From Prochlorothrix hollandica PCC 9006 = CALU 1027 (lineage in GTDB: Bacteria; Cyanobacteriota; Cyanobacteriia; Prochlorotrichales; Prochlorotrichaceae), in assembly GCF_000332315.1 (NCBI RefSeq), contig NZ_KB235933.1, positions 169,183 to 230,787 of the forward strand: 61,605 nt of DNA, written 5' to 3'. Positions 15,765 through 40,205 of the stretch are shown one piece after another. How positions within the stretch are numbered: position 1 is the first letter of the stretch; the number at the start of each line of letters is the position of its first letter. Both the position numbers and the translations under genes were made by a program. The notes under the pieces are model-generated. The model did not search any database and was not told where the DNA came from. It saw only the letters and a program-made list of their open reading frames with translations.

Positions 15765-21416
<5,652 letters not shown>

Positions 21417-21637: not shown

Positions 21638-21916
21638 TCAAATAATCACCGAACCCGGCACCTCCGTCAGCGGAACCCCCCCCCATACCACCACCTGCCC
21701 CAACGTATGGCCCGATAGGGGATAAAACCGCACCGCATCCTCCTCCCCCTTGAGCCGTGGCCGCAAGCGCCTTTGTAGCTCCTCATACTTCTTCACCGTC
21801 AGCAAACACTCAAACACACTGTATTGTACCCGCCGACCATACCCCTCCAGCAAATCCGACACCGCCTTGCGGCGCTTATCACTGGGAATATCATAGGTCA
21901 CCACATAGAGCAGCAT
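21638..21916 (-). CDS. cas2: CRISPR-associated protein Cas2
   Basis: Adaptation subunit that bridges two Cas1 dimers. The ferredoxin-like start LYVVTYDIPSDKRRKAVSDL carries the conserved Asp, followed by YGRRVQYSVFECLLTVKKYEEL, and 92 residues is the usual length. It lies 9 bp downstream of cas1 and directly borders the leader. Confidence 0.97.
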   Translation of the reverse strand: MLLYVVTYDIPSDKRRKAVSDLLEGYGRRVQYSVFECLLTVKKYEELQRRLRPRLKGEEDAVRFYPLSGHTLGQVVVWGGVPLTEVPGSVII

Positions 21917-21925
21917 CGGCTCCCC

Positions 21926-22918
21926 CTAACGAATACGATAGGGCGCATAACCCTGAACCGGACTGTAAACAAACTCCTTGTAAGCCCGCACCTGCCGATT
22001 TAACAGATCCCAACTGGGTTGAGCTGCGTCCTCCTCTGACTGTACCGGCATCTCCATCCGCTGCACAAACGCTCCCAACCACTTGCGCCGCCCCCGTTCC
22101 CCCAAAAAGCAGCCCCCATCCCGATACTCAAAATCCCCCTGGGCATCCAGTTCCCCATTATTAATGAGTTGCAAAACCAAAGAATCCACCAATGGGGCAC
22201 GGAACGGCTCAATCAAATCGGAGACCAACGCTGCATGGCGATAACTGCCCTGGTGCAAACAGCCCTCATAGGGATCCAACCCCTGGAGTTCCACCAAGGT
22301 CAGCAGATGATTCCACAGCACCTGGTAACCAAAGCTGAGTAAGGCATTGACCGGATTCCCCGGTGGACGACGGCTCCGGCTGACAAAGGCAAAATCAGCA
22401 TGGCGCAAACAATCCCCAAACCCTTGGAAATATTGGGCCGCTGCCGCTCCTTCCAGTCCCATCAAGCGATCGATCTGGTCCGTATCAGAAATTTGGTGGA
22501 TCAGATAAGCTAACTGTTCGATCGCCGTCTCCAGCATCAAACTCGATCGTCGCCGCTGTTGCCGCTGCAAAATCACCCGACTATTGAGCAGCTTCGCCTT
22601 AACCAGGGCTTGGGCCAGCAGTAAACGCTCCAACGCGGTTAATTCCCGTTGATATCGGGCTAACTGCCGGTAACCTCCCTCGATCGCCACCACACGACCA
22701 TAGCAATAGCCCATGCGTGAGAGATAGGCAATGGGAATATTACGCCAGAGGCAAGCCCGAATCGCCTGGGTGGTCAACTGAGACTGGCCAAACACCAACA
22801 CCTGATCTAACAAAGGAAGCCGTACCTCCTCTAGCGTCCGATCGCCCTGCTTCACCACCAGCATTTCCTGCTGAAGGGACACAAAACAACCCTGCCGAGA
22901 GAGATACAGCGTTCGCAT
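21926..22918 (-). CDS. cas1: CRISPR-associated endonuclease Cas1
   Basis: Integrase of spacer acquisition. Start MRTLYLSRQGCFVSLQQEML is the beta-rich N-terminal domain. The metal ligands are E156 (LMGLEGAAAAQYF), H222 (GCLHQGSYRHAALV) and E237 (SDLIEPFR). NPVNALLSFGYQVLWN at about 188-203 is a family signature. Length 330 is normal. The cas1 and cas2 genes run with the Csx18-like gene as a three-gene unit, close to the leader end of the array. Confidence 0.97.
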   Translation of the reverse strand: MRTLYLSRQGCFVSLQQEMLVVKQGDRTLEEVRLPLLDQVLVFGQSQLTTQAIRACLWRNIPIAYLSRMGYCYGRVVAIEGGYRQLARYQRELTALERLLLAQALVKAKLLNSRVILQRQQRRRSSLMLETAIEQLAYLIHQISDTDQIDRLMGLEGAAAAQYFQGFGDCLRHADFAFVSRSRRPPGNPVNALLSFGYQVLWNHLLTLVELQGLDPYEGCLHQGSYRHAALVSDLIEPFRAPLVDSLVLQLINNGELDAQGDFEYRDGGCFLGERGRRKWLGAFVQRMEMPVQSEEDAAQPSWDLLNRQVRAYKEFVYSPVQGYAPYRIR

Positions 22919-22961: not shown

Positions 22962-23222
22962 CTACGATCGTCGCCTGATCTGGTCTGATTCCGTCTCATC
23001 CAACAGAACCGAGACCCTAGCCCGCCCAGGGCGATCGCCCTGCAAAAAGAGAATCACCCGATCGGCAAGTTGGGCCGTGCTGAACGTGGCCACCACCACC
23101 AAAGCAGTGTTCATGATCACAGCCGCTAACCCTAGGGGAGCAATCAGTAAAATAGTCAGGGTAATGGCTCCATTGGTGCCAGAAACCAAGATATTACGAA
23201 TCAATGCGGTTCGATCGGTCAT
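22962..23222 (-). CDS. csx18: Small membrane protein, Csx18-like
   Basis: About 86 residues with a two-helix hydrophobic core (AITLTILLIAPLGLAAVIMN, then TALVVVATFSTAQLADRVI) between a short polar N-terminus (TDRTALIRNILVSGTNG) and an Arg-rich tail. This fits, from memory, the small Csx18 family often found beside cas1-cas2 in cyanobacterial CRISPR loci; its function is unknown. I start at the ATG at 23222; a GTG two codons earlier (23228) is equally possible. It is the first gene of the cas1-cas2 group, 43 bp before cas1. The gene name is from resemblance only. Confidence 0.65.
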   Translation of the reverse strand: MTDRTALIRNILVSGTNGAITLTILLIAPLGLAAVIMNTALVVVATFSTAQLADRVILFLQGDRPGRARVSVLLDETESDQIRRRS

Positions 23223-23503
23223 ATTCACGGCAGAATTCCTCTGTGAGTCAAACTGTTTCTAGGCGGTCTGGGGCTGAAAGCGGGCATCAGGGGCAGCGAT
23301 CGCTGTCACCCCAGCCGCTGTTCCCGGTGGGCACGGTGTTCCAGGTTCTCCGGCGATCGGGTTGCCCCCCAAGCCATCGTCACCCCCGCCGACTGCTATC
23401 CCTAGACTAGAGAACCGATCGCCATTATCCTAGGCTTCTAACGCGAACAGCGAAACGGGCTGACCGGGTTGACGAACCCAGGATTCTGCCTTGGGCGGGG
23501 CAT

Positions 23504-24689: not shown

Positions 24690-26156
24690 TTAGCGCAGTG
24701 TTGTTTTAATGCGATGGTGAAGACTAGCAAACAAACTGGACTGCTTTAAACTCACAAACTTTTGATCGCTCAGTAAATTTAGACAGGCAACCATCCGCTT
24801 TTCCCATTGGTTTAGGTTTGTGACCCCCCAAGCCTTAAACATCTCCAGAGGGCTAATACCAACAATTTGGTGGGACAGTTGGTTCCGTAAATCCTTAGCA
24901 CTATTCCATAGAGGTGCTAAATCCAGAGACTCCGCAAAAGCTCGATCGGCCACGCTCAGAATGGTTTGTCTGGCATAATTATGCAAATCAATCTCAGGAT
25001 TGGGTGCTTGATTGGAGTTTCTACTGTTAAACAAGGCAACAATCCGAGAATCCTGCTTAAATACCTGGCAAGCCTCCTCTCTTCGCAGCCGGACAAAGCC
25101 TTGATCTGCTGGAGCCAGAACGATCGTCGGATAACGAGTCGTAATCCAGGTAACAACCAGCGCCTCCAATGCCCGAAAGCTATGGAGAAAAGCCTCAACT
25201 GTATTGTCTTGGCTTAACCGAACCCAAGACAGATACATTTCCTCATAGGCCATCCACCAAAACATCCCAGTTTGCTCTCGCTGTTGCTGTGTCAAACTCC
25301 CTATCCCAAAGGTCAAGAAATTATCAAACCGCCCCTGATTCCAGGCAACACCAGCCTTAACCCAGCCCTGAACTTGCTGGACATCCGCCCGATCGTTGTA
25401 ATCCTCCAGTAATTCCTGCACCCCCACATAGTCAAATCGGTCCAGTCGGCGCAGAACTTGTTGATAGGTTCGATCCCAGAGGTAGTTTTGTCCGAGGTAT
25501 GGCCCATGGTAAGCAGAGGGAATTCCCTCTCGGTTCTTTTTCGGAGTTTGTTCAAACTCAAAGAACTGAATCAGATCGCTATAGCGACTCAATCCCGAAA
25601 TGCGCCCAGCCTCAGAAGACTGTCCAACTCCCCCTTTGACACACATCCAAATCTTGTGCTTTTTCGGGATCTTGATGGTTTGTTCCCACTGCTGGCTCCA
25701 CCACTCAAACATTCCCTCAAAATCAGACGGGTTCGTTCCATCTCTTCCTAGGGGAACAACCGTCACTGCAATACTGGGCTTCTGCTGCTCTAACCATGCT
25801 TTGATGAGTTCACAGGCATAAAGTGTGTCTTTTGTTCGGTATTGCACTGTCTCATCCTGATCCGTTCCAATGAGATAGACCTGCTGAATTTCTTGCAGGT
25901 GCTCTTCAAGGAGCTTCCCTAAAATCACAGGACGCACTCGATGGGCGTATTCTGCCTTATTTTCGACCAAGAAATGGGTTAAATCTCGGTAGGTCAAGGT
26001 AGACTTCCCTAAATCAGACAAGACCTCGGATTGCTCACCAATAATGTCACCATCCTGCATCCGATCGTCCCCGGCGTTGTACCATTCACCCGATTTGATC
26101 TGATACATCAGGTCACGGGTTCCGATCGTTGCAATCAAGGTAATAGGGGTAATCAT
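24690..26156 (-). CDS. CARF-HEPN protein, Csm6/Csx1-like ribonuclease
   Basis: Likely cyclic-oligoadenylate-activated RNase of the type III system. The N-terminus ITLIATIGTRDLMYQI resembles strand 1 and the ligand loop of CARF domains; VYLIGTDQDETVQY (about 93-106) and CVKGGVGQSSEAGR (about 173-186) are further probable CARF parts. The C-terminal half is helical and ends with the HEPN signature RNQLSH, R424 to H429 (Rx4H). Total 488 residues, close to Csm6/Csx1. Cas10 of this operon keeps GGDD, so an activating signal is expected. The ATG directly follows the stop codon of the PD-(D/E)XK gene. The domain call is by motif; the CARF part needs a profile search to confirm. Confidence 0.75.
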   Translation of the reverse strand: MITPITLIATIGTRDLMYQIKSGEWYNAGDDRMQDGDIIGEQSEVLSDLGKSTLTYRDLTHFLVENKAEYAHRVRPVILGKLLEEHLQEIQQVYLIGTDQDETVQYRTKDTLYACELIKAWLEQQKPSIAVTVVPLGRDGTNPSDFEGMFEWWSQQWEQTIKIPKKHKIWMCVKGGVGQSSEAGRISGLSRYSDLIQFFEFEQTPKKNREGIPSAYHGPYLGQNYLWDRTYQQVLRRLDRFDYVGVQELLEDYNDRADVQQVQGWVKAGVAWNQGRFDNFLTFGIGSLTQQQREQTGMFWWMAYEEMYLSWVRLSQDNTVEAFLHSFRALEALVVTWITTRYPTIVLAPADQGFVRLRREEACQVFKQDSRIVALFNSRNSNQAPNPEIDLHNYARQTILSVADRAFAESLDLAPLWNSAKDLRNQLSHQIVGISPLEMFKAWGVTNLNQWEKRMVACLNLLSDQKFVSLKQSSLFASLHHRIKTTLR

Positions 26157-26735
26157 TTATAGCTCCTCAGGTTGTAAAATTCCAACTAAAATGCTGACTA
26201 AATCTGATAAGTCCCCTGGAACACGGTAAAGATTAATATCTTGGGTGATCTGATGATCTCTGAGCTTGGCAAACTGCCAAATATTGCCCGTTGTCACTGC
26301 TCCATAACAATCTCCTAGCTCGATCATTTCCACGGCCAGTTGGGTGAATCCCCGTGTTAAATCATCGCGTTTGGCCTCAATGACCAATAGGCTATTGTGG
26401 CCTCGGATCAAATAATCGAGATTCCCTTTAGCCTTTTTCCCCACAAGGGAATATTCAATATTGAGCTTAAGGTTTAAGGGTTCTACCACTTCAAATAGAA
26501 TGGGGGCAACGAGGGTTTCCCGTCGGGCTTGTTCTGAGGTTAAAGGTGTGAGTTGGATGCGCCGTTCTAGGGTATTTTTGAGAGTGCTACAGTCGATCGT
26601 AGGGGATTTAGGCAACTCAAGGGAGTCTACCCGCAGTTGGTACCCCAGTTCCGCCAAAATTTCATCCGGTGGGTCGTTGAACTCCGTAAATTGGCTAAAA
26701 AGATAGGTGCGATCGGTTTCTAAGATCTTTGCCAT
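26157..26735 (-). CDS. PD-(D/E)XK nuclease-like protein, copy 1 (Cmr-linked)
   Basis: A 192-residue protein with a nuclease-like core resembling the N-terminal domain of type I restriction R subunits: E73 (RRETLVAPILFEVV), D107 (KGNLDYLIRG), E120 and K122 (LLVIEAKRDDLTRGF), then Q132. The C-terminal part YGAVTTGNIWQFAKLRD...DLSDLVSILVGIL is shared with the paralogue at 32613-33233 and the remnant at 23504-23656. No CARF or other sensor domain is visible. It sits 2 bp after the PLD-like gene and directly before the CARF-HEPN gene. I do not know a named CRISPR family for it; the role could be DNA or RNA cleavage, or a structural one. Confidence 0.8.
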   Translation of the reverse strand: MAKILETDRTYLFSQFTEFNDPPDEILAELGYQLRVDSLELPKSPTIDCSTLKNTLERRIQLTPLTSEQARRETLVAPILFEVVEPLNLKLNIEYSLVGKKAKGNLDYLIRGHNSLLVIEAKRDDLTRGFTQLAVEMIELGDCYGAVTTGNIWQFAKLRDHQITQDINLYRVPGDLSDLVSILVGILQPEEL

Positions 26736-26737
26736 GA

Positions 26738-27718
26738 TTACTCCTTAGGTATCATGAAATTATATTTCAACGTGTAAGTGCCTGCATTAGGGTGAAAGTC
26801 ATTTTGAGTTTTTTCGTAGATTTTTTTGGTTTGTCGAGACCAGGTTACTTCAGCATTGGCTTGAATATTAAAGCCACTGGTCATACTAATGCCTACTAGA
26901 TCTGTCAAAATATAGCGATCGTGGATTTTCTGATCATCAGGATCAAAATCTTGCCAAATGAAAACTTCAGCAACTAAGTTTTTTGCTTTGAGGATAGGGT
27001 AGAGAATACTAAAACGCTTGATCCAGTCCTGTAGATCTAAGGTGCTGCGATACATATTGCTCTGATCCTGTCCTTTCACTGCTGAGTGCAATTCAATTCT
27101 AGCATAAGGCTGTTTTACCAGATTCAGAAGATGATAAAATTCTCCATATTGAGATTGACTCGGATCTAAATAAGGGTCAATAAACATCACAGAGTTAGCA
27201 CAACTCAAAATCAACCGTAAATGTTGACAATAATCAATGGTTTGCTTGGGAATTTGGATCATACGAGATTTATCTCGTCTTTCCATCCAGTCAGCAGTTG
27301 TTAGCCTATTGATCCCAACCACAGTAGGATTATTTTTGTAAACATTCTGTTGAGCTAATTCTGGTAGAGCAATAATGCCACTTAGAGGTTCGGCAGCATG
27401 GGAAATCAGCGCTTCCAATAACCAATCTTCAGCAGATTCTGGTTTTGTTGATCCAATTCCCAACGCGCCAACTTCTCGAAGACGTTTTTGAGTCTTGAGT
27501 TGCTTTAGGAGTTCCTTTGCCTTAGGGTGAAGGCTTGGAGGAGAATCCTTGATCCAGGTCTGAATGTAGTGCCACCACTCTCCTGCTCGAATATTTCTCA
27601 CCAGTGCTTCTTCCAGCAGTATTGGCTTTAGAATCTGAAGACGAGCTTCGGCTAGCTCAGCACTGCTATAAGCATCAATCCTGAAAATATTTGGAACTAA
27701 AGCATATTCCGATAGCAT
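26738..27718 (-). CDS. PLD-like (HDR motif) protein in the Cmr operon
   Basis: A 326-residue protein. The N-terminal ~160 residues are helical and unassigned. The C-terminal half looks like a single phospholipase D-fold domain: VMFIDPYLDP (about 177-186) and then IHDRYILTDLVGISMTSGFN with H266 and R268 in place of the canonical HxK. This HxR form occurs in MIT_C-type PLD-like domains, which may be nucleases or binding domains. It lies 2 bp after the DUF3696-type ATPase gene, so the two were probably translated together. The ATPase-PLD pairing suggests an effector regulated by ATP hydrolysis; this is inference. Confidence 0.7.
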   Translation of the reverse strand: MLSEYALVPNIFRIDAYSSAELAEARLQILKPILLEEALVRNIRAGEWWHYIQTWIKDSPPSLHPKAKELLKQLKTQKRLREVGALGIGSTKPESAEDWLLEALISHAAEPLSGIIALPELAQQNVYKNNPTVVGINRLTTADWMERRDKSRMIQIPKQTIDYCQHLRLILSCANSVMFIDPYLDPSQSQYGEFYHLLNLVKQPYARIELHSAVKGQDQSNMYRSTLDLQDWIKRFSILYPILKAKNLVAEVFIWQDFDPDDQKIHDRYILTDLVGISMTSGFNIQANAEVTWSRQTKKIYEKTQNDFHPNAGTYTLKYNFMIPKE

Positions 27719-27720
27719 AA

Positions 27721-29406
27721 CTATGCGAAGACCTCCTCTAGTGCTTCCTCAAAAAAGCCTCCAGGCCAAGCTTTAACTAGCTCCCCTCGATGATTAAGGG
27801 GAAGCTCTTGAATAAAGCTGGCACTACCGTTAGAGTTAAAATCTACATAAAGGACACAAACTTGATCAGGAGTGATGGGGGGATAATCAGGGGGCAAGGT
27901 TCCATCCACCGTCTCTCGCATCCGCCGCATGATCCGTAGCAGAAGGTTTTCGCTGTGGGTTTCAATAATGAAGTTATTTTGGTTTTCAGTGAGGGCTGAC
28001 TTCACAAAAACATCAGCTAGTTCCCCTTGGAGTCGCGGGTGGAGGTGAATTTCAGGCTGTTCGATCGCGATCGTTCTCTGTCGAGAAGCAATGCTCTGAA
28101 CTAGCACTGGCAGGATCTGACTAATACCAAATCCTACATCCAACAAGCTAACATCTACATTGGTAAATTGATCAACTAAACGAATGGTAAAAACATCACT
28201 GATTTGGTGATCGTCTTCATTGAGGAACTTTACAATTTTGACTCGATAGCGCAAGTTGAAAATCTCGAAATTCTGGTTTAAGTGCTCTAAAACGTCCTCC
28301 TTTTTGAACAGAAGTTCAGCAATTCCCTTACCTGTTTTACCAATCTGATCATTGACATGGCCACTGAATGTATAAAGACGCTCTGGATAGTCCCTCAAGG
28401 GAGCAATATAAACCAGATCGGTAAGAAATGTCCGCATTTGAGTAGATGCTTCCTTTATTAAGCGATCTAAAAGATCGAGGGTTCCTAGGGTTCGATGGAA
28501 TTGTAGAAGATGTTTAGTCTCCCACTGCCACTGGAGGGATTCATCTTCCTCGTCAATGATCAAAGCTGTTGGCATAAAGCTTTGGTATTCTAGATAGGAG
28601 TAGAAGGGAACAACCTTCAGTAAGTCTGTAATTGCTTCAGGTAAGGTATAGGTTTTGAGTCGTTGATCTAGATCAATAAGGTATTCCATTTCATCTACTA
28701 AGTCAGCTAAAGCAGAATTTTTATCAAAATCATCCTGACTCATCTCACTTTTCAAAGATTTCACTTGCTTTCTCAAGGCTGTATTAAGGGTTTTCCTTTG
28801 GTTAGGACGAAGCCGTATCTTTCCACTGAGGGCATCTCTGACTTGGGTAAAAAATACATCAATGAGTTTGTTCTGAACATCATGCCACCAGCTTTGCCAG
28901 AACTGATGCCGCATATCTATTTGGGCAAGACTCAGAATGCCAGATTCCTCATCAATTTTATAGGAAATTACAGGTATTTGAGCATTCCCTTGGAATAGAT
29001 GAATCTGGATAACTTCTGACTTTTTACTATCCTGACTATAGGCAAAGCTAATTCCTAGGCCATGACTTAGGTTTTTTGTGTCTTTCCCTTCAAAGTCTAC
29101 CTGACTCTCTTGGGTAGTAGATTGGCGTTCAGGCTGAAAAATAGCTTTAACGGTGAACTGGCTGTTCAAATCATGGTTATGTATCAATTCCTGGTAGTTG
29201 CCTAGATGGGTAAGCTTGCCTTGGGGCAATAGAACTGACTCAAAGTTTTCAGGATCTTCCAGGGTCTGTTTTAGGAGAAGCAAAGACTGAAGTACGGAGC
29301 TTTTGCCCGCAGAATTTGGCCCATAAAGTAAGGTGATGGGACGAATTGGGATGGTTTGGGTCTTGCCAAAGGCTTTAAAGTTAGTTAATTCATAGTGACT
29401 TAGCAT
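27721..29406 (-). CDS. AAA/ABC-type ATPase with DUF3696-like C-terminus
   Basis: SMC/RecF-like ATPase of 561 residues. Start MLSHYELTNFKAFGKTQTIPIRP leads to Walker A GPNSAGKSS (29-37). A long helical insert fills the middle. Signature-like LLDVGFGISQILPVLVQ, Walker B IAIEQPEIHLHP (446-457) and the H-loop ETHSE (482-486) follow. The end VDFNSNGSASFIQELPLNHR plus ELVKAWPGGFFEEALEE is the DUF3696 signature. Such ATPases are common in antiphage systems paired with nucleases. Here it is 11 bp after the Cmr6-Cmr1 fusion and 2 bp before the PLD-like gene, all in the cmr operon. Confidence 0.85.
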   Translation of the reverse strand: MLSHYELTNFKAFGKTQTIPIRPITLLYGPNSAGKSSVLQSLLLLKQTLEDPENFESVLLPQGKLTHLGNYQELIHNHDLNSQFTVKAIFQPERQSTTQESQVDFEGKDTKNLSHGLGISFAYSQDSKKSEVIQIHLFQGNAQIPVISYKIDEESGILSLAQIDMRHQFWQSWWHDVQNKLIDVFFTQVRDALSGKIRLRPNQRKTLNTALRKQVKSLKSEMSQDDFDKNSALADLVDEMEYLIDLDQRLKTYTLPEAITDLLKVVPFYSYLEYQSFMPTALIIDEEDESLQWQWETKHLLQFHRTLGTLDLLDRLIKEASTQMRTFLTDLVYIAPLRDYPERLYTFSGHVNDQIGKTGKGIAELLFKKEDVLEHLNQNFEIFNLRYRVKIVKFLNEDDHQISDVFTIRLVDQFTNVDVSLLDVGFGISQILPVLVQSIASRQRTIAIEQPEIHLHPRLQGELADVFVKSALTENQNNFIIETHSENLLLRIMRRMRETVDGTLPPDYPPITPDQVCVLYVDFNSNGSASFIQELPLNHRGELVKAWPGGFFEEALEEVFA

Positions 29407-29417
29407 TTAGTCAATCC

Positions 29418-31379
29418 CTAAATTTGAGCGTATTTGTCCCGATCTGTCTGGGCTTTGAGTTCCTTGAGGAAGCGACAGCGAGGATTTTGAGGATCATCCG
29501 TTACTCCAAACACGGTAACCACCTGATAATCCCCTAAATCGGCAATCCAGACTGGAGAAGGCTTGACCTTCCCAAAAACTGTGCCACACAAGCTTCCATC
29601 GTAGTTCCCATTGTACTTAAGTCCATCACTGTGCAAAACAGATAAAGCATAGGGCTTCCCGTAGCGTGTTGCTCCGCTACAAACCACAATCCGGCAATTG
29701 GCATCCACAGCTTCCACCCAATCTTTTTTGGAGGCTGGCCCCGCCGTATAGGAACTCCTGTTCTGAATGGTCTGGGTGGTGAGCTTGCCTAGGGAACTGT
29801 AAAAAACCTGAAGACGACGATCGAACAGGGTCTTAAACTCAGCAACTTCATCGGGTAAGTTCCAAAATTCAGATTCCTCAGGAAATAAACTAGAACCACG
29901 CCACCAGGGAGCACGATCGCGGGTTTTGCGGGAGTAACAGGGACGGCGGGCACCTTGGCCAATGCCGCCTAGGTGAAACATAAGCCACACTAAAGACTGC
30001 ATCAAAGATGCGATCGCTTGAGTGTACTGGGTAGGAGCCTCGGATGAGAGAAAAAGCTTCAATTCTCCCGACTGTTCGCCACAGGGATCGTCTTTGCCTT
30101 GGGCCGTGGGACGGGCTTCTTTTTGGACGAGCTTGCCATTGTGAATTTGGAAGATGACCCAGCCCCGTGTCTGGGGATCGATCGCCCCAAACAATTGGCT
30201 CTCCAAGGTTTTCACTTCACCACTGGGTAATACGCCCAAAGCAAAGCTACGGAACCAATAGCGCAGCATAGACTTAAAGGCGATCGATCTGACTTCAGGA
30301 TGGGGCTTCCCTCGCATTTGCCACTCCTGGCGGTTCGGGTTCCAGTTCCACTGGGTAAACTTTTGCTGACCATGGATCAACTGTCCCTCTAGGCTAAACT
30401 CCACTGCAAAGAATGGCTTAAGAGGGGACTTCTCACCGGCTATTAGCAAACTGCCATAGCCCGTATTCACCTGGGAACCCACCCCAAGTTGTAGCCCTTG
30501 GCTGAGCCACTCCTTGACCTGCTTTAATCGTTCCGAGTCACAACCTGGGCCGGGACGTAACCCAATCAGCAATGTGGGTTCCTGGAGGGAAAAGAATGGA
30601 TTGGGGTTGGGGGAGTAGGTTGGTAGTCTATCTCCGTCCCACTTCCAAATATTATTAGCCATGTCTACTGCTAATCCCCCAGATTTACCCGAAGGTTGGG
30701 GCAGGGGATAGGCATCTAGGAAGACTATCTTACCCGATCGCTCTTCACTGTTTTTACTATCGAGGTAGCCAAAATAGTGCCGAGAAATGTGTTCCTCCGC
30801 TTGTTCCCAGGAGAAATTCTGGCTTTGCATTAAGGAGCGAATGGCTTGAGTTCGGGCCACGCCCCGTAGAGTACTGGAGGGGATATAGGGAATCCCCAGG
30901 GCATCAAAGGCGGGGAGCAAGATGCTTTCTGGCCCCCGGTGGCCACCGACGCGGATCCGCCATGTGCATTTGGCTTGGAAAACTACGCCCTGGGTTTCGG
31001 CAATTTTGCGAGTGCGATCGGTGAGGGTTTTGAGGCGATCGAAATAATTCGCCCCCTCCTCTGCCAGTTGCAACAGTTGCACTTTAGTCGGATCTTTGTA
31101 ATCCTGACCGGGTTCTCGCATCCAGCGCAGATACTCCACAAAACTAGCCTGGGGGTCAGGCTGAACGATCGTTTCCAGAAGCCACGGGGAAGGAGTTTGG
31201 GGATTGTTCCCACCAGGATGCTGATTGCCTCTCCCTGGCATGGGGGGACGAGGGCCACCTCCACCACCTTGTGTAGGACGAGACTGGGGCCGATTGGGCT
31301 GATTGGCTCGTTGGGTTGGATTCGGCTGTGATCCCGATGAATTAGGCTGATTAGGCCGTTTGGGTCGCTCAAAAACCAT
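29418..31379 (-). CDS. Cmr6-Cmr1 fusion protein (type III-B RAMP)
   Basis: Two RAMP subunits of the Cmr complex in one chain of 653 residues. After a Pro/Asn/Gly-rich disordered leader (about 1-65), the first half has Cmr6 marks: IPYIPSSTLRGVARTQAI (about 163-180) and the glycine-rich LGVGSQVNTGYGSL. The second half has Cmr1 marks: VRSIAFKSMLRYWFRSFALG (about 363-382), LESQLFGAI, and LGGIGQGARRPCYSRK. Cmr1 and Cmr6 cap the crRNA/target end of the complex and hold the target 3' region. The start is set at the ATG at 31379 with GGAGAGGAG just before it, 2 bp after cmr5; the frame continues 15 codons further up. The fusion is typical of the cyanobacterial variant III-B loci as I remember them. 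Confidence 0.85.
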   Translation of the reverse strand: MVFERPKRPNQPNSSGSQPNPTQRANQPNRPQSRPTQGGGGGPRPPMPGRGNQHPGGNNPQTPSPWLLETIVQPDPQASFVEYLRWMREPGQDYKDPTKVQLLQLAEEGANYFDRLKTLTDRTRKIAETQGVVFQAKCTWRIRVGGHRGPESILLPAFDALGIPYIPSSTLRGVARTQAIRSLMQSQNFSWEQAEEHISRHYFGYLDSKNSEERSGKIVFLDAYPLPQPSGKSGGLAVDMANNIWKWDGDRLPTYSPNPNPFFSLQEPTLLIGLRPGPGCDSERLKQVKEWLSQGLQLGVGSQVNTGYGSLLIAGEKSPLKPFFAVEFSLEGQLIHGQQKFTQWNWNPNRQEWQMRGKPHPEVRSIAFKSMLRYWFRSFALGVLPSGEVKTLESQLFGAIDPQTRGWVIFQIHNGKLVQKEARPTAQGKDDPCGEQSGELKLFLSSEAPTQYTQAIASLMQSLVWLMFHLGGIGQGARRPCYSRKTRDRAPWWRGSSLFPEESEFWNLPDEVAEFKTLFDRRLQVFYSSLGKLTTQTIQNRSSYTAGPASKKDWVEAVDANCRIVVCSGATRYGKPYALSVLHSDGLKYNGNYDGSLCGTVFGKVKPSPVWIADLGDYQVVTVFGVTDDPQNPRCRFLKELKAQTDRDKYAQI

Positions 31380-31381
31380 AC

Positions 31382-31792
31382 TTACTCCTCTCCTTTCACA
31401 TCCGCATAAATGGCTGTTGCCCAAAAACCAAATTCCTGAGCAATGGATAGTCCTAAACCCGTCAACCCAAGATATTCATCAGCACTGGTCTGTGCTGGAT
31501 CAACCAAGATTTGAAGACCGGGCCGACCAATAAACTTCTTGGACTCTTCTGAAGATAATATCCCCAGACACTTGAAAAATGCTGTGACTACTGCTTTTTT
31601 TCCCTCTTGCTCTTTCAAAGCTTCTTCTTCTGCCTTGAGCCGCAACAGTCCCCAGGTAGAGAGATAGGTATAGAGTTCAGTTGCTTGGCTTTTTTGCTGC
31701 TTAACAACTTTATCCTCTTTATCCCGGTTCCCCCGTAAAGTGCTGAGTTGCTGATAGACTTCTGCGGCGATCGTCCGTGGGTCAAATGTCAT
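31382..31792 (-). CDS. cmr5: Cmr5, small helical subunit of the Cmr complex
   Basis: 136 residues, largely helical (AAEVYQQLSTLRGNRDKEDK, KAVVTAFFKCLGILSSEESK), of the size and place expected for Cmr5, which lines the crRNA-target duplex. Similarity within Cmr5 is weak, so the call rests on length, helix content, the phrase LLRLKAEEEA...FKCLG and position between cmr4 and cmr6/1. Confidence 0.8.
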   Translation of the reverse strand: MTFDPRTIAAEVYQQLSTLRGNRDKEDKVVKQQKSQATELYTYLSTWGLLRLKAEEEALKEQEGKKAVVTAFFKCLGILSSEESKKFIGRPGLQILVDPAQTSADEYLGLTGLGLSIAQEFGFWATAIYADVKGEE

Positions 31793-31810: not shown

Positions 31811-32620
31811 TTAGTGTGCAAGCCAAGTTTGAACAAAGCCCCGACCGAGGCTCTCCTGTCCCCCAATTTGGAGAATATCCGCTTGGTTCAGCAGAGTCGT
31901 GAAATCAGCCGCAGACTGGGAGCCAGTGCCATGCTTGGCCTGGGTGGTGGTTCCCCAGGGGAAATACATAATCGTATCGGGGGGAATGGCTTCCTCATAG
32001 CGAAAGCTCCCATCTTTTACTGTCTTATGCTCATCCAGCTTGATTTTCACTTGTCGCCAAAGGCCCATTTGGATCAGGGTGGCACAGTGCTGGTCTGGCA
32101 GAACGATCGCCCGCTTGACCGTGGCAGTATGGGCTGATTGGGGCATCAGGGCTTTGAACTGATCTTGAGATAAAGCCGTTAACTCTGACGGTTTGATGAT
32201 GGCATCCTTGAGGTAGACAGGCTTCTTGGCATCCATCCCAAAGCAGGCATATTTTTCGCTGGGTAAGGTAATGGACTGCTGGGTTAGCCGTGCCCAGCGT
32301 TGCAACAGCAGGGGAGAACTGACCCAAATCACCCCATGGCTCAGGGACGGAATGGGAAGCCACAATAAAGAGCCATCGCCAATCCAGATATCCCCTTGGG
32401 TTAAGGTATCCCCAGAGTCTAAATCCTTACCAAAAAGCTGATGACGATCGTCAATGGAATCTGTAACACTAGCCCGCAGCCGCCCCCGAATGGTACTAGA
32501 GGGAATGTAGGGAAGATTCGTATGGGATTCACGGGCAATCCCCAGTAAATTGCCCTCTTGGGTGGTGCCTCCGGTGTGGAGAGGGGCTAGCAGGTAGAAA
32601 TAAACTAAATTCTCAATCAT
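31811..32620 (-). CDS. cmr4: Cmr4, backbone RAMP of the Cmr complex
   Basis: Repeated backbone subunit of the Cmr complex, normally the one that cuts target RNA every 6 nt. Marks: YFYLLAPLHTGGTTQEG at the start, LPYIPSSTIRGRLRA (about 36-50) and the C-terminal glycine loop QIGGQESLGRGFV. The segment before the RE pair reads GNLLGIARE; in canonical Cmr4 the catalytic Asp lies six residues before that Glu (as in VVDLPIQRE), and here that place is Leu. RNA cleavage by this subunit may therefore be lost. I start at the ATG at 32620, which overlaps the upstream gene by 8 bp; the frame extends nine codons further to 32647. Confidence 0.88.
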   Translation of the reverse strand: MIENLVYFYLLAPLHTGGTTQEGNLLGIARESHTNLPYIPSSTIRGRLRASVTDSIDDRHQLFGKDLDSGDTLTQGDIWIGDGSLLWLPIPSLSHGVIWVSSPLLLQRWARLTQQSITLPSEKYACFGMDAKKPVYLKDAIIKPSELTALSQDQFKALMPQSAHTATVKRAIVLPDQHCATLIQMGLWRQVKIKLDEHKTVKDGSFRYEEAIPPDTIMYFPWGTTTQAKHGTGSQSAADFTTLLNQADILQIGGQESLGRGFVQTWLAH

Positions 32621-33233
32621 GGCAAGTGTTTCCCTCAATAATGCCAACTAAGATTTTTAAGAGTTGCTCTAGCTGTCCAGGAACGCTATAGAGCAAAATA
32701 TCCTGGGTGATGGTTTTACTCGCTGCGTCTAGCTTGCCAAAGCGCCAAGCCTCCCCGATCGTGACTGCTCCATAAAGGATTTCTAAATCCTCAGCCTGGG
32801 CTAGGGCAATCATCTCTGCTGCCAGTTGGGTAAAACCCCGTGAGAGATCATCCCGCTTGGCTTCAATGATGATCAAATTTTGGGACGATCGCAGTAAATA
32901 ATCCAAAGTCCCCTTCAGCCAATTATTGACTGTTAAAGAATATTCAATGCGCAATTGCGATTGACAATGGACCGCTACAGCAAAAATAATCGGGGCAATT
33001 AGAACTTCACGGCGAGCCGTTTCACTGCTCAAGCTAACTAGGGGCAGGATGTCCTGAATTTGCTGAGCTAAGGCGAGTTGGGGCAGGGCACGATCGCTTT
33101 GGGGTAGCGATAACTGAGCAATTTTAAGGGCATACCCCAGTTCCCCCAAAATCTCATCTGGTTCCGCCAGCATTTCAAAATACGATCGAAACGTGTAAGA
33201 TTCGCTATCCTGGAGAATTTTAGGCTTGGCCAT
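32613..33233 (-). CDS. PD-(D/E)XK nuclease-like protein, copy 2 (between cmr3 and cmr4)
   Basis: Paralogue of the gene at 26157-26735, here 206 residues. The same core is present: E76 (TARREVLIAPIIF), D111 (KGTLDYLLRSSQ), E124 and K126 (LIIIEAKRDDLSRGFTQLA), and the C-terminal YGAVTIGEAWRFGKL...LLKILVGI. It sits inside the core cmr genes, 2 bp after cmr3 and overlapping cmr4 by 8 bp, so it must be made together with the complex. The core keeps all catalytic-looking residues. No described Cmr subunit has this fold to my knowledge. Confidence 0.82.
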   Translation of the reverse strand: MAKPKILQDSESYTFRSYFEMLAEPDEILGELGYALKIAQLSLPQSDRALPQLALAQQIQDILPLVSLSSETARREVLIAPIIFAVAVHCQSQLRIEYSLTVNNWLKGTLDYLLRSSQNLIIIEAKRDDLSRGFTQLAAEMIALAQAEDLEILYGAVTIGEAWRFGKLDAASKTITQDILLYSVPGQLEQLLKILVGIIEGNTCHD

Positions 33234-33235
33234 CG

Positions 33236-37494
<4,259 letters not shown>

Positions 37495-37603
37495 AACGGT
37501 TGCTCCGTGGGAACCCTTTGCGGTGGGATGTACTTAGTATTGGACATGGCGAGAAAAAAAAGTAGGGTTTTAATGCGAACAGCGATCGGACTTGGGTCTG
37601 CAT

Positions 37604-39676
37604 TCAAGGTGGGGGGAGATAAAGGGCGGCGATCGCCCCAAGCCGCTGACGGAAATTCTCGACCCAGTGGGGGGGACCCATGACGCGCACCCCATCGTCA
37701 AAGCCCCAAATCCAGCGCTTGAGATCCACATTGTCCCAAGCCCAGTAGGGGAGCGTTAGGAGGCAGCGGTGGGGATGGGCCGGGTCGCCCGTGGGTTTGA
37801 GGCGGAAGAGCTTAGGGTGGCCCGGTCGGGCCGAGTCGGGGAGACGGGGCGACAGTTGGATTTGGTCGGGGGGGAAACGTTGATCCCCCTCGCTGACAAA
37901 GCGAAAGGCCCGATCGCTAAACCATAGCTCCAGGGTAGCGCTGATAGCTTGGCGCTGTTGCCGTTTGCCGCTAAGCCACTGACGCTGGTGATGGGGGTTT
38001 TTGCCTAAGAACAGTCCCCCCGAAGCTTGAAACAAAGCCTGTAGCTGCTGGCAGGCGCGATCCTGTATCCCCCGATCGCGGTACTGATCTACAACTCTAC
38101 CCCGAAAGACGCGATCGAGGCGATCGAACTCCAACAGTCCTATGTCGGGACCACTGGCCACTTCATAGCCCAAATACCAGCCAATATTGTGGAAAACCAT
38201 TTGGACAGGCCATGCCTGGAAAAAAGTTTCGGACTCCGTGCCATGGCGACCCACCCCCCGAAAGCGTTGTAGCTCTAGGCAGTGGCCTTGTTCAATGTCC
38301 TGCTCTAGGCGATCGACGGTATTGGCGAGGGCATCACTGGGCAGGTGGGTTTGGTTGGTGATGGTGAAGTTATAGAGAGCGCGAACGGGGTAGGGGGCCA
38401 AGGGGCTGAGTTTGCTGTATTTGAGGCGATCGTTCAGGGTATTGAGCAAATCCAAGACCGTGGGATCTGCAAGACTTTTGGCTTGACCCGCCAGCAGTTG
38501 GTGCAGTTGCAGCAGTTGGGGCTGGGAGAAAATGCCCGTACCCAGAAAATAGCCCTGTTTGTAGCGCTGGGGCATCAGGAGACCGTAGGGCTTGAGAATC
38601 AGTTGAATATCTTTGCGCAGGGTATCCCGACAACTGCCTAGGGAACCCGCCAAGATATTGCGATCGCGCAGGGCTTGGGTGAGGGCTTCCAGGGCGCTAC
38701 CATCTCCCCCATAAAAGGGATGGTGAGCGATAAAGCGTAGGGTGCCCATCAGTCGCAGGAAGCGATCGATTTCGGAATAGCCGTGGGTGGGAGTTAGGGG
38801 CAGGGGTTGCTCCGGCAGATCCCACGGGGGGAGACAGGGTTCGCTGTGGAGGAAGCCGTTGCGTTGCAACCAGTCTAGGTTTTGGGCAAGGGCGGGGCGA
38901 TCGCCGTAGAGGGGATCCTGTTGGCTGAGCAGGGCGCTGAGTTCGTCTAAGTCGGTTGTTAGCGTACTGAGGTCAGTTGTGGCTCCTAAGGCTTGTTGTA
39001 GCACATCAGGCTGGTGATGGCGCAGATTTCCAGCTCCGGGATACTCCAGAAGAACCCGGATTAAGTAGAGTAGGCGCTCAAAGGCCAGGAGGCTGCTGTA
39101 GGGATGGAAGACGTGCTTGGTGGCTTGGGTGGCGTTGCGGCGGTTGGTGATTTTGCGGGCAAGGCGAGGCAGGATGTCGTGGAGGTGGCGATCGAGATCA
39201 GCAATTTGGCTGGGATCTAGGGGTTCTAGGGTGGCAAAGCCTTCGGCGGCTTCAGGGGGAAAGGCGTGGAGTGCGGCGTGCAGGTCTTGGAGGATGGCGG
39301 CGGGGACTGGGCGATCGTGGCGTTCCTGGTTCCACTGCAAACAGGTATTGAGGGGAGTGGTCAGGTACCAGCCAATCCAAACCTGGTCGGGGTAGGTGTC
39401 CAGGAAGGGCAGCAGGAAACGGAAGCGCCAGGGGCGTTTGGCGTTGGTGGCATCGTAGATCAGGGTTTTGCCAGCGGTAATGGCCTGGTGGCACTGGGCT
39501 TGGACTTGGGCGAAAATTTCGGGCCACTGGCCTTGAATGCTGGGATCCCCGTAGAGTTGGGCGCGAATCGCGTCGGTGCTGATCACTACCGAGGGGGGTA
39601 GGTGGTGCTGGAGGGTTTGGGCCAGGGTGGTTTTGCCGCTGCTGGGGGGTCCGATCAGAATGTGATGCTGGGTCAT
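37604..39676 (-). CDS. P-loop kinase (PNK-like) fused to a WYL-domain regulator
   Basis: 690 residues in three parts. Residues 1-165 are a P-loop kinase of the polynucleotide kinase/zeta-toxin type: Walker A LIGPPSSGKTTLAQ (7-20), VVISTDAIRAQLYGD, LIYDATNAKRPWR. The middle is helical with a probable winged-helix-like segment (GYSEIDRFLRLMGTLRFIAHH). The C-terminal third contains a WYL domain (VFHNIGWYLGYE) and a WCX-like end. WYL proteins are ligand-sensing regulators of several cas operons in cyanobacteria. Position directly upstream of cmr2 on the same strand fits a regulator or an RNA-end-processing partner; the latter is speculation. Confidence 0.8.
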   Translation of the reverse strand: MTQHHILIGPPSSGKTTLAQTLQHHLPPSVVISTDAIRAQLYGDPSIQGQWPEIFAQVQAQCHQAITAGKTLIYDATNAKRPWRFRFLLPFLDTYPDQVWIGWYLTTPLNTCLQWNQERHDRPVPAAILQDLHAALHAFPPEAAEGFATLEPLDPSQIADLDRHLHDILPRLARKITNRRNATQATKHVFHPYSSLLAFERLLYLIRVLLEYPGAGNLRHHQPDVLQQALGATTDLSTLTTDLDELSALLSQQDPLYGDRPALAQNLDWLQRNGFLHSEPCLPPWDLPEQPLPLTPTHGYSEIDRFLRLMGTLRFIAHHPFYGGDGSALEALTQALRDRNILAGSLGSCRDTLRKDIQLILKPYGLLMPQRYKQGYFLGTGIFSQPQLLQLHQLLAGQAKSLADPTVLDLLNTLNDRLKYSKLSPLAPYPVRALYNFTITNQTHLPSDALANTVDRLEQDIEQGHCLELQRFRGVGRHGTESETFFQAWPVQMVFHNIGWYLGYEVASGPDIGLLEFDRLDRVFRGRVVDQYRDRGIQDRACQQLQALFQASGGLFLGKNPHHQRQWLSGKRQQRQAISATLELWFSDRAFRFVSEGDQRFPPDQIQLSPRLPDSARPGHPKLFRLKPTGDPAHPHRCLLTLPYWAWDNVDLKRWIWGFDDGVRVMGPPHWVENFRQRLGAIAALYLPPP

Positions 39677-40205
39677 GGGTCGGCAGGCTAGGGGGTGGGG
39701 TTTTAGCCTAGCGGATCCCTGGGGGCAGTGGGTGGGTTCTAATGCGAGGGGCGAAGGACAGGGGAATCGGTGAGACCCTAGGGCTAGCTAGACAAGGGGC
39801 TTAAGCCCAATACTAACAAATTGACCGTAACCTCCATTATTTGGGAGACCCTAGGGCTAGCTAGACAAGGGGCTTAAGCCCCTTGCCCCTGACGGACACA
39901 AGTCCCTGAAGTAACGCAAACTCGTCACGAACTTTCAAGGGTTTCAGGAGATTTAAGCCTCGACATTCCGGGGTCAACTTGCAGAATGCCGACTGAATAG
40001 GTATGCTTTTATCTAAAGCTAGCAGCATCACGTTTGCCATTAGCCGTGGCATAGGGTAGAAGAATGGTTATCCAAAGACATACAGCAATCCTAAATCAGT
40101 TGTAAGGATCTCGATCGCTGAAACCCCTTGTGTAGTGTGCTCCCTCCGGGCACACACCACACGATCCATTTCGGATTGCTGTAGTTAGTTCTCTCAGGAT
40201 GATGT
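39677..40205. other. Gene-free stretch with two repeat families before sbtA
   Basis: Divergent region of the kinase-WYL gene and sbtA. It holds two direct copies of a 37-bp sequence at 39772-39808 and 39845-39881 (GAGACCCTAGGGCTAGCTAG then GACAAGGGGCTTAAGCCC), which share the GGGGCTTAAGCCCC palindrome with 1010-1209, and one complete MITE-like element at 40081-40183. I see no gene. Confidence 0.8.
40081..40183 (+). mobile_element. 103-bp TA-flanked MITE-like element, copy 2
   Basis: Starts TACAGCAATCCTAAATC, ends TTTCGGATTGCTGTA. This copy has the best matching ends (TACAGCAATCC / GGATTGCTGTA). The central hairpin is shortened and imperfect. It lies 22 bp upstream of sbtA, so any promoter for sbtA must be inside or before it. 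Confidence 0.9.

Follow-up and report, generated by a model that had tools for sequence, protein, structure and literature searches.

A kinase-WYL fusion protein at the head of a type III-B CRISPR operon of Prochlorothrix hollandica is a candidate ligand-responsive activator of cas genes

The 61,605-nucleotide stretch of the Prochlorothrix hollandica PCC 9006 = CALU 1027 genome analysed here (hereafter the window; contig NZ_KB235933.1, positions 169,183 to 230,787) carries a gene, called K-WYL in this work, whose product joins a P-loop kinase, two repeats of a putative winged helix-turn-helix (wHTH) type, a WYL domain and a WCX domain. The gene is an ATG-initiated open reading frame of 690 amino acids (aa) at 37604..39676 on the minus strand; an earlier note on this DNA had its coordinates exactly, and the strand had to be corrected to minus. 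The fusion of kinase and WYL in one protein that this note had described was borne out by an N-terminal AAA_33 match and a C-terminal PADLOC WYL match, and it is not a chance event, since 56 distinct frames of at least 600 aa align and the kinase motif residues are kept in at least 95% of them. The placing of the fusion gene at the head of a Cmr operon was also correct: cas10/cmr2 (34387..37494, minus; profile matches and a GGDD motif in the translation) lies 109 bp downstream on the same strand. It is followed by cmr3 (33236..34390, minus; Pfam and PADLOC profile matches), a PD-DExK nuclease-type gene (32613-33233; PADLOC PD_DExK, E 1.8e-29), cmr4 (31811..32647, minus; Pfam and PADLOC), cmr5 (31382..31792, minus; PADLOC) and a gene for a Cmr6/Cmr1-type RAMP protein (29418..31424, minus; profile matches), which completes the III-B (Cmr) operon.

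The kinase domain (residues 3-160; 39197..39670, minus) is of the polynucleotide kinase (PNK)/PSTK type. Pfam AAA_33 matches residues 5-136 (E 3.6e-18), and the NCBIfam Pnkp and PSTK models match the kinase part alone, far under their cut-offs, with TIGR04075 (Pnkp) covering residues 6-147 by model positions 12-149 of 851; the phosphatase and ligase modules of a complete bacterial Pnkp had no match in K-WYL. A K-WYL profile built from 26 relatives matched the solved chains 4gp6, 4gp7 and 4jst, filed as metallophosphoesterase, with E 3e-19 to 6e-19 (we take the 4gp6/4gp7 chains to be the kinase domain of the bacterial Pnkp of Clostridium), PSTK with E 2e-13, Pnkp1 (4xrp) with E 3e-13, and the T4-type and mammalian polynucleotide kinases with E 3e-5 to 1e-4. 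The label of polynucleotide kinase proposed earlier holds, as the profile matches solved polynucleotide kinases and PSTK, and its addition "zeta-toxin-like" is not the best label; because PSTK matches too, a tRNA or another substrate is possible. At least 95% of the 56 frames keep each of the residues G9, S13, G14, K15, D35, R38, Q48, D75, N116, R119, R122 and E145-G146-F147. Aligned to the solved chains, and with each residue given what we take to be its function, they contain the signature of a 5'-OH polynucleotide kinase, namely the P-loop, the acceptor-site Asp and Arg and the lid Arg. One lid position, presumably that of the first lid arginine in the solved chain, is mostly Trp in the K-WYL family (W115). 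Judged from this conservation, the kinase is under selection. In the viral contigs scanned, matches were to the kinase part only, and the wHTH-WYL part had no relatives.

What the earlier note had called a helical segment is indeed a distinct region, to be described more correctly as two homologous repeats (residues 180-292; 38801..39139, minus, and residues 296-400; 38477..38791, minus) that are related to the N-termini of kinase-less cyanobacterial WYL proteins. Aligned with each other by hhalign, the repeats gave a probability of 96.8% (E 2.3e-10), against 0.5-1.7% for three control pairs. The profile of the second repeat matches the N-terminal region in 21/21 kinase-less WYL proteins, and that of the first matches an overlapping region in 14/21. 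By profile, the two repeats appear to be of the DNA-binding (wHTH) type, a reading which rests on their homology to the segment of kinase-less WYL proteins where the wHTH of the family sits. The rest of the chain is the putative ligand-sensing WYL + WCX region (residues 440-688; 37613..38359, minus): the PADLOC WYL model matches residues 443-683 (E 6.5e-14) and the K-WYL profile matches the C-terminus of PafC (E 0.00095), while in this member Pfam WYL gives no match and Pfam WCX stays under its cut-off.

The distribution of the family was surveyed in 386 cyanobacterial genomes, 115 of which match some part of K-WYL and 47 of which have a K-WYL frame of at least 600 aa. Four genomes with partial or broken genes (G085, G229, G255, G338) bring the set of K-WYL genomes to 51; second copies bring the K-WYL places to 57, several of them partial or broken (those of the four genomes just named and the second place of G342). 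The alignment and tree comprise 56 of 58 frames (proteins below 600 aa and two identical rows were left out), and the loci L041 and L044 were dropped as copies of L004 and L005. The Prochlorothrix genome has one K-WYL. A III-B Cas10 lies within 12 kb of 25/57 K-WYL places. Seen from the side of Cas10 (97 places, 56 of the long and 41 of the short type; 8 of 49 small-type rows, below 500 bp, were left out), 27/97 places have K-WYL within 12 kb and 21/97 have a kinase-less WYL gene instead; among the 49 places with neither, 8 were outside the search for kinase-less WYL genes and others are clipped by contig ends. Four kinase-less WYL genes of one genus (L144, L146, L148, L151) hold exactly the place of K-WYL in the window, on the same strand and 67-118 bp upstream of cas10, and many others are divergent from cas10 (for the row from G116 the strand was assumed). 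On the tree of 56 rows, made by a quick method, CRISPR association switches state 9-11 times, compared with about 19 for shuffled labels. Outside CRISPR loci, K-WYL is found in operons with a reverse transcriptase (RT) or before genes for an S-adenosylmethionine (SAM)-methyltransferase and AlkB, as in pAQ5 and pAQ6; in pSYSA an AlkB gene is close to a kinase-only relative. In five RT loci (L005, L007, L048, L050, L072) K-WYL, without its kinase in L072, comes after the RT gene and another gene of no known family.

Three predicted K-WYL sites were located in the window, all on the minus strand and each with a -10-like hexamer 33 nt past the site core. The first (37568..37587; pattern matches) lies in the 109-bp gap before cas10, with the hexamer AATACT at 37536..37541. 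The second (23436..23455; pattern and matrix matches), with TAGTCT at 23404..23409, precedes the adaptation operon of csx18 (22962..23228, minus; clusters with the annotated csx18 of pSYSA), cas1 (21926..22918, minus; Pfam match) and cas2 (21638..21916, minus; clusters with the annotated cas2 of Euhalothece pEu1). The third (39737..39756), with TAGGCT read from the sequence at 39705..39710, precedes K-WYL itself. The regulation of cas genes suggested earlier gains support by inference, a site-like sequence being present at 37568-37587 inside the very gap that had been named, with others before csx18 and, weakly, before K-WYL.

The window-type pattern, TCGCYGTTCGC-RTTARA, is based on three sites, namely those before csx18, before cas10 and before a second III-B cas10 of the same genome (C1:1506044-1509130; predicted site 74 bp upstream), with K-WYL's own site unused. 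Up to three mismatches being allowed, it gave 3 matches in the 61.6 kb (expected 0.02; 0/100 shuffles reach 3), none of them in or beside the CRISPR array. In the whole 5.6-Mb genome, one mismatch being allowed, there were three matches, all exact, before csx18, cas10 and the second cas10, and no match of the backwards control; this shows only that nothing else fits, as the pattern was written from those three sites. The second cas10 locus (L172) has no WYL gene within 8.4 kb. Its site had first been found, with 1 mismatch, by a pattern made from other genomes and the window cas10 site; the third match of that looser search was judged to be chance, since it overlaps a 391-aa frame, presumably of ribosomal protein S1. 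The palindrome GGGGCTTAAGCCCC, which lies upstream of K-WYL, was rejected as an operator because similar copies are present elsewhere in the window; inverted repeats with arms of at least 8 are absent from the 109-bp gap, and several occur in the 529 bp upstream of K-WYL. Additionally, a CRISPR spacer at 18405-18441 resembles the K-WYL site and has the best matrix score in the window (17.9); a query with 18403-18442 found no match in plasmid or phage collections.

The same kind of site recurs in other genomes. A conserved block was first seen in four K-WYL/cas10 gaps of the family f7, which is probably Nostoc-like, and in distant members half of it reappears ahead of K-WYL and cas10, in most cases oriented like the gene, giving the directional family consensus TTYGTNRTTCGC-RTNAAAA. 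Counted as up to two mismatches to AATTTCGTNATTCGC within 350 bp upstream on either strand, stretches below 200 bp being left out, the site precedes 16/56 K-WYL genes (0.2 in shuffled sequence), 15/83 cas10 genes (0.4) and 0/21 kinase-less WYL genes (0.05). A matrix built from 29 sites outside the window gave 102 matches in 125 loci versus 15.7 in simulated sequence. The K-WYL and cas10 enrichments are partly circular, because the training sites of the matrix come from upstream of those genes; moreover, the loci are related to one another, and a gap between two divergent genes enters the counts of both. At the same time, the matrix found sites before gene classes unused in training, namely csx18 (3), Cas1-linked (1), methyltransferase (3) and RT (2) genes, with 13 matches inside genes and 7 in other gaps. 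In the closest relative, Leptolyngbya BL0902, a site lies 95 bp before cas10 and another 62 bp before the annotated csx18, the latter being one of those tallied as inside a frame. Further predicted sites were observed 245-272 bp before the RT gene (L005, L007); before the SAM-methyltransferase and AlkB genes directly after K-WYL (L006 14053, L007 14051, L059 8915), where they are strong and accompanied by a CTGACA -35 and a TANNNT -10; and about 93 bp upstream of the gene for a further HTH-WYL regulator (L185 18410, L186 18196; PADLOC WYL E 1e-124 and 1e-137), which suggests a possible regulator cascade.

The 51 K-WYL genomes, full or part, were then compared with 51 hand-picked genomes without K-WYL. 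A relaxed pattern gave 64 matches in the former, against 15 for the backwards control, and 26 in the latter, against 20; the strict core TTCGTCRTTCGC was present in 15 and 3 of these matches, respectively. Among 77 cas10 and 39 cas1 genes (excluding the cas10 of the window and the loci of the named plasmids), the site precedes 17/41 cas10 genes in K-WYL genomes versus 1/36 in others (Fisher 3.5e-5), and 6/22 versus 0/17 cas1 genes (p 0.02), p-values to be read with the genomes not being independent and with the cas10 part sharing loci with the matrix training. In two genomes (G066, G002) the site stands before cas1 and K-WYL is elsewhere on the chromosome, so that control would be in trans. 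By these counts, the presence of the site tracks K-WYL across genomes, also in trans.

This tracking bears on the possibility that K-WYL is mainly an RNA/DNA repair kinase, tethered to nucleic acid by its WYL part, with another factor using the site. The strict conservation of the kinase motif, the methyltransferase and AlkB genes after K-WYL (or, in pSYSA, near the kinase-only relative) and two genomes with strict-core sites in which K-WYL was not found would agree with such a role; the co-occurrence of site and gene, including that in trans, and the kinase-less WYL proteins in the same operon position argue against it, and we regard it as quite improbable. Still further down in our estimate is a role as an accessory protein with a direct modulating effect on the effector, by analogy to RspWYL1 and Cas13d, and not as a transcription factor. 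A WYL protein that boosts Cas13d is known (PMC6547453); at the same time, 32/57 K-WYL places have no Cas10 match within 12 kb (some are on short contigs), the repeats are tandem and of DNA-binding type, and the site stands before K-WYL's own gene and before unlinked cas operons, so that this alternative is very improbable.

The position of the sites relative to the promoters was analysed on 65 non-redundant sites out of 104. In 36/65 sites a TANNNT hexamer occurs at an offset of 48 or 49 nt, counted from where the 23-mer starts (32-33 nt past the core), compared with a mean of 2.8 and a maximum of 11 for other adjacent offset pairs, and the -35 zone behind the sites shows a weak T and G only. 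Assuming a start point about 7 nt past the -10, the site would extend from about -57 to -38, which is the position of an activator. The alternative to be weighed against this is a repressor comparable to BrxR, which would keep the cmr and adaptation genes silent and would be released by a ligand. BrxR is reported to repress its own defence island (PMC9122601), and a type I-D CRISPR locus is reportedly repressed by Sll7009, a WYL protein of cyanobacteria (PMC4012209). Moreover, a second TANNNT spacing class, +26 (10/65 sites), seen in K-WYL promoters of some f7 genomes, would put the site over the -35 and may mean repression, maybe auto-repression. However, the 36/65 sites upstream of a weak -35 at a fixed -10 distance recall DriD (PMC12340889), and the BrxR box is an inverted repeat (11 bp, spacer 5 bp) that lies between promoter and gene (PMC9122601), whereas the site found here is directional; the apparent inverted repeat of the four f7 gaps, rejected as an operator, consists of two opposed sites for two divergent genes. 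Repression as the general mode is unlikely.

Architecture, family membership, genomic association and the recurrent site with its spacing are computed observations. The reading that we prefer, with a probability of roughly 0.7, is that K-WYL is a ligand-responsive WYL transcription factor, an activator, which controls type III-B CRISPR with the kinase as an input. The tandem wHTH-type repeats would bind the directional site just upstream of the weak -35, and K-WYL would most likely recruit RNA polymerase at this point, in the manner of DriD and PafBC. The predicted targets are its own gene, the cmr operon, csx18-cas1-cas2 and the second, unlinked cmr operon. We infer that the WYL-WCX region senses a ligand of nucleic-acid type; as to the kinase, its substrate and its coupling to the switch are a matter of conjecture, and it may serve as an input or editing module that binds or 5'-phosphorylates nucleic-acid ends arising in infection, DNA damage or Csx1 cleavage, thereby tuning the switch.

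Besides the circularity named above, the +26 spacing class and the K-WYL places far from Cas10, the following points weigh against this activator reading. Pfam HTH models match 2/6 kinase-less WYL proteins, weakly (E 0.05-0.14), and the DNA-binding segment, which by profile is present as the tandem repeats, obtained no fold confirmation from a single-sequence structure model of the whole K-WYL (pLDDT, the predicted confidence score, 36; not used). K-WYL's own site is the weakest of the three in the window (3 mismatches), and the hexamer behind the cas10 site is not TANNNT. The looser own-genome search that led to the second cas10 returned that site, the window site itself, the chance-judged match and one match of the backwards control. 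The outside matrix ranks the csx18 site 3rd and the cas10 site 10th in the window, neither individually significant; the bare 11-mer has 2 matches in the window versus 1.05 expected, and the family pattern has none in the home genome. Genomes with the relaxed pattern number 25/51 with K-WYL and 19/51 without it, at the threshold used no site precedes 24/41 cas10 genes of K-WYL genomes, and an 11-row clade, f20, has none within 3 mismatches. Finally, the two genomes with strict-core sites in which the survey found no K-WYL are G278, where the site (L184, G278:C48:1-11600) precedes a cas10, and G241 (G241:C1:195654); a remnant, a gene missing from the assembly or another regulator are the alternatives for them.

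Kinases of the Pnkp family phosphorylate 5'-OH ends, and HEPN RNases such as Csx1 are expected to leave such ends, which makes an input of end chemistry through the kinase plausible. The link to RNA damage or to cyclic oligoadenylate that had been proposed earlier is a conjecture. The window encodes a CARF-HEPN Csx1-type RNase (24690..26156, minus; PADLOC CARF_HEPN, E 1.3e-123), a possible source of 5'-OH RNA ends. A bolder and, in our estimate, doubtful version is a self-reading damage switch, in which the kinase would 5'-phosphorylate 5'-OH ends made by Csx1/HEPN RNases, ring nucleases or invader damage, and its own WYL region would read the phosphorylated (or depleted) ends. If so, the enzyme would, through its catalysis, keep a record of end chemistry that induces CRISPR interference and the acquisition of spacers, and the output of type III signalling would be coupled back to cas transcription genome-wide. 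Between csx1 and the Cmr6/Cmr1-type gene lie three more genes (26157-29406): one encodes an AAA protein related to the NsnB/AriA/GajA models, and the other two (192 and 326 aa) have no NCBIfam match, the 326-aa one no PADLOC match either.

The induction of type III CRISPR operons is poorly known, and K-WYL provides a candidate regulator together with a site predicted at base resolution. The predicted targets cover interference and adaptation and, in other genomes, methyltransferase-AlkB and RT defence genes. In Leptolyngbya sp. BL0902 predicted sites precede cas10 and csx18; Picosynechococcus sp. PCC 7002, which has two K-WYL genes, carries them ahead of methyltransferase and RT genes and shows none before its cas10. 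With such strains, and with kinase-less WYL proteins occurring naturally at the equivalent place in the operon, the regulation can be tested directly, and so can the part played by the kinase. In the full-text literature searched, which mostly excludes subscription journals, neither a kinase-WYL fusion nor such a site was described; the catalogue of WYL fusions with nucleases, helicases and others has, in the text available, no kinase among them (Makarova et al. 2014, PMC4012209).

Among known systems, the kinase-less cyanobacterial WYL proteins resemble K-WYL in family, in their position near cas10 and in a presumed regulatory role; they differ in having no kinase, one repeat and no site before their genes. 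Sll7009, placed among them by description, is reported to regulate type I-D negatively (PMC4012209). The kinase of bacterial Pnkp, from the Hen1-Pnkp RNA repair system, shares with K-WYL the P-loop and the S-D..R, DATN, N..R..R and EGF motifs, and differs from it in its phosphatase and ligase parts, unmatched in K-WYL, and at the presumed position of the first lid arginine, where the K-WYL family mostly has Trp (W115). Csx3', common in cyanobacteria, combines a ring nuclease with a kinase/transferase domain; like K-WYL, it unites a P-loop domain with a component of type III signalling and occurs in loci of this kind (PMC7371418). Identity of the K-WYL kinase with the Csx3' P-loop domain was considered and dropped, as the kinase profile gives one marginal P-loop match among 6 proteins. 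A Csx3' ring nuclease joined to a P-loop domain of another kind is present in the home genome, too (C1:707134-707391, L243).

The closest functional parallels are two WYL activators, both reported to be triggered by single-stranded DNA at the WYL region (PMC12340889, PMC11804915). DriD of Caulobacter, a homodimer, has a wHTH and a WYL part like K-WYL, and a site also lies upstream of driD, where it reportedly drives not this gene but another operon; DriD sites lie at a constant distance from weak -10s that come with poor -35s (PMC12340889). A site at a fixed -10 distance with a weak -35, the trait of the DriD/PafBC type, is found here in the 36/65 sites and in the three sites of the window. 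Unlike DriD, K-WYL has an N-terminal kinase, two wHTH-type repeats and CRISPR genes as its predicted targets; the DriD site is a 20-bp pseudo-palindrome around -35 (PMC12340889), whereas the K-WYL site looks directional and lies upstream of -35. PafBC of mycobacteria, which acts by sigma adaptation, likewise brings two wHTH units to a promoter, one on DNA and the other on sigma domain 4 (PMC11804915), and the C-terminus of PafC is the part matched by the K-WYL profile. As reported, PafBC is a heterodimer at a -26 element, whereas K-WYL carries both repeats and the kinase in one chain, and the kinase is the new part.

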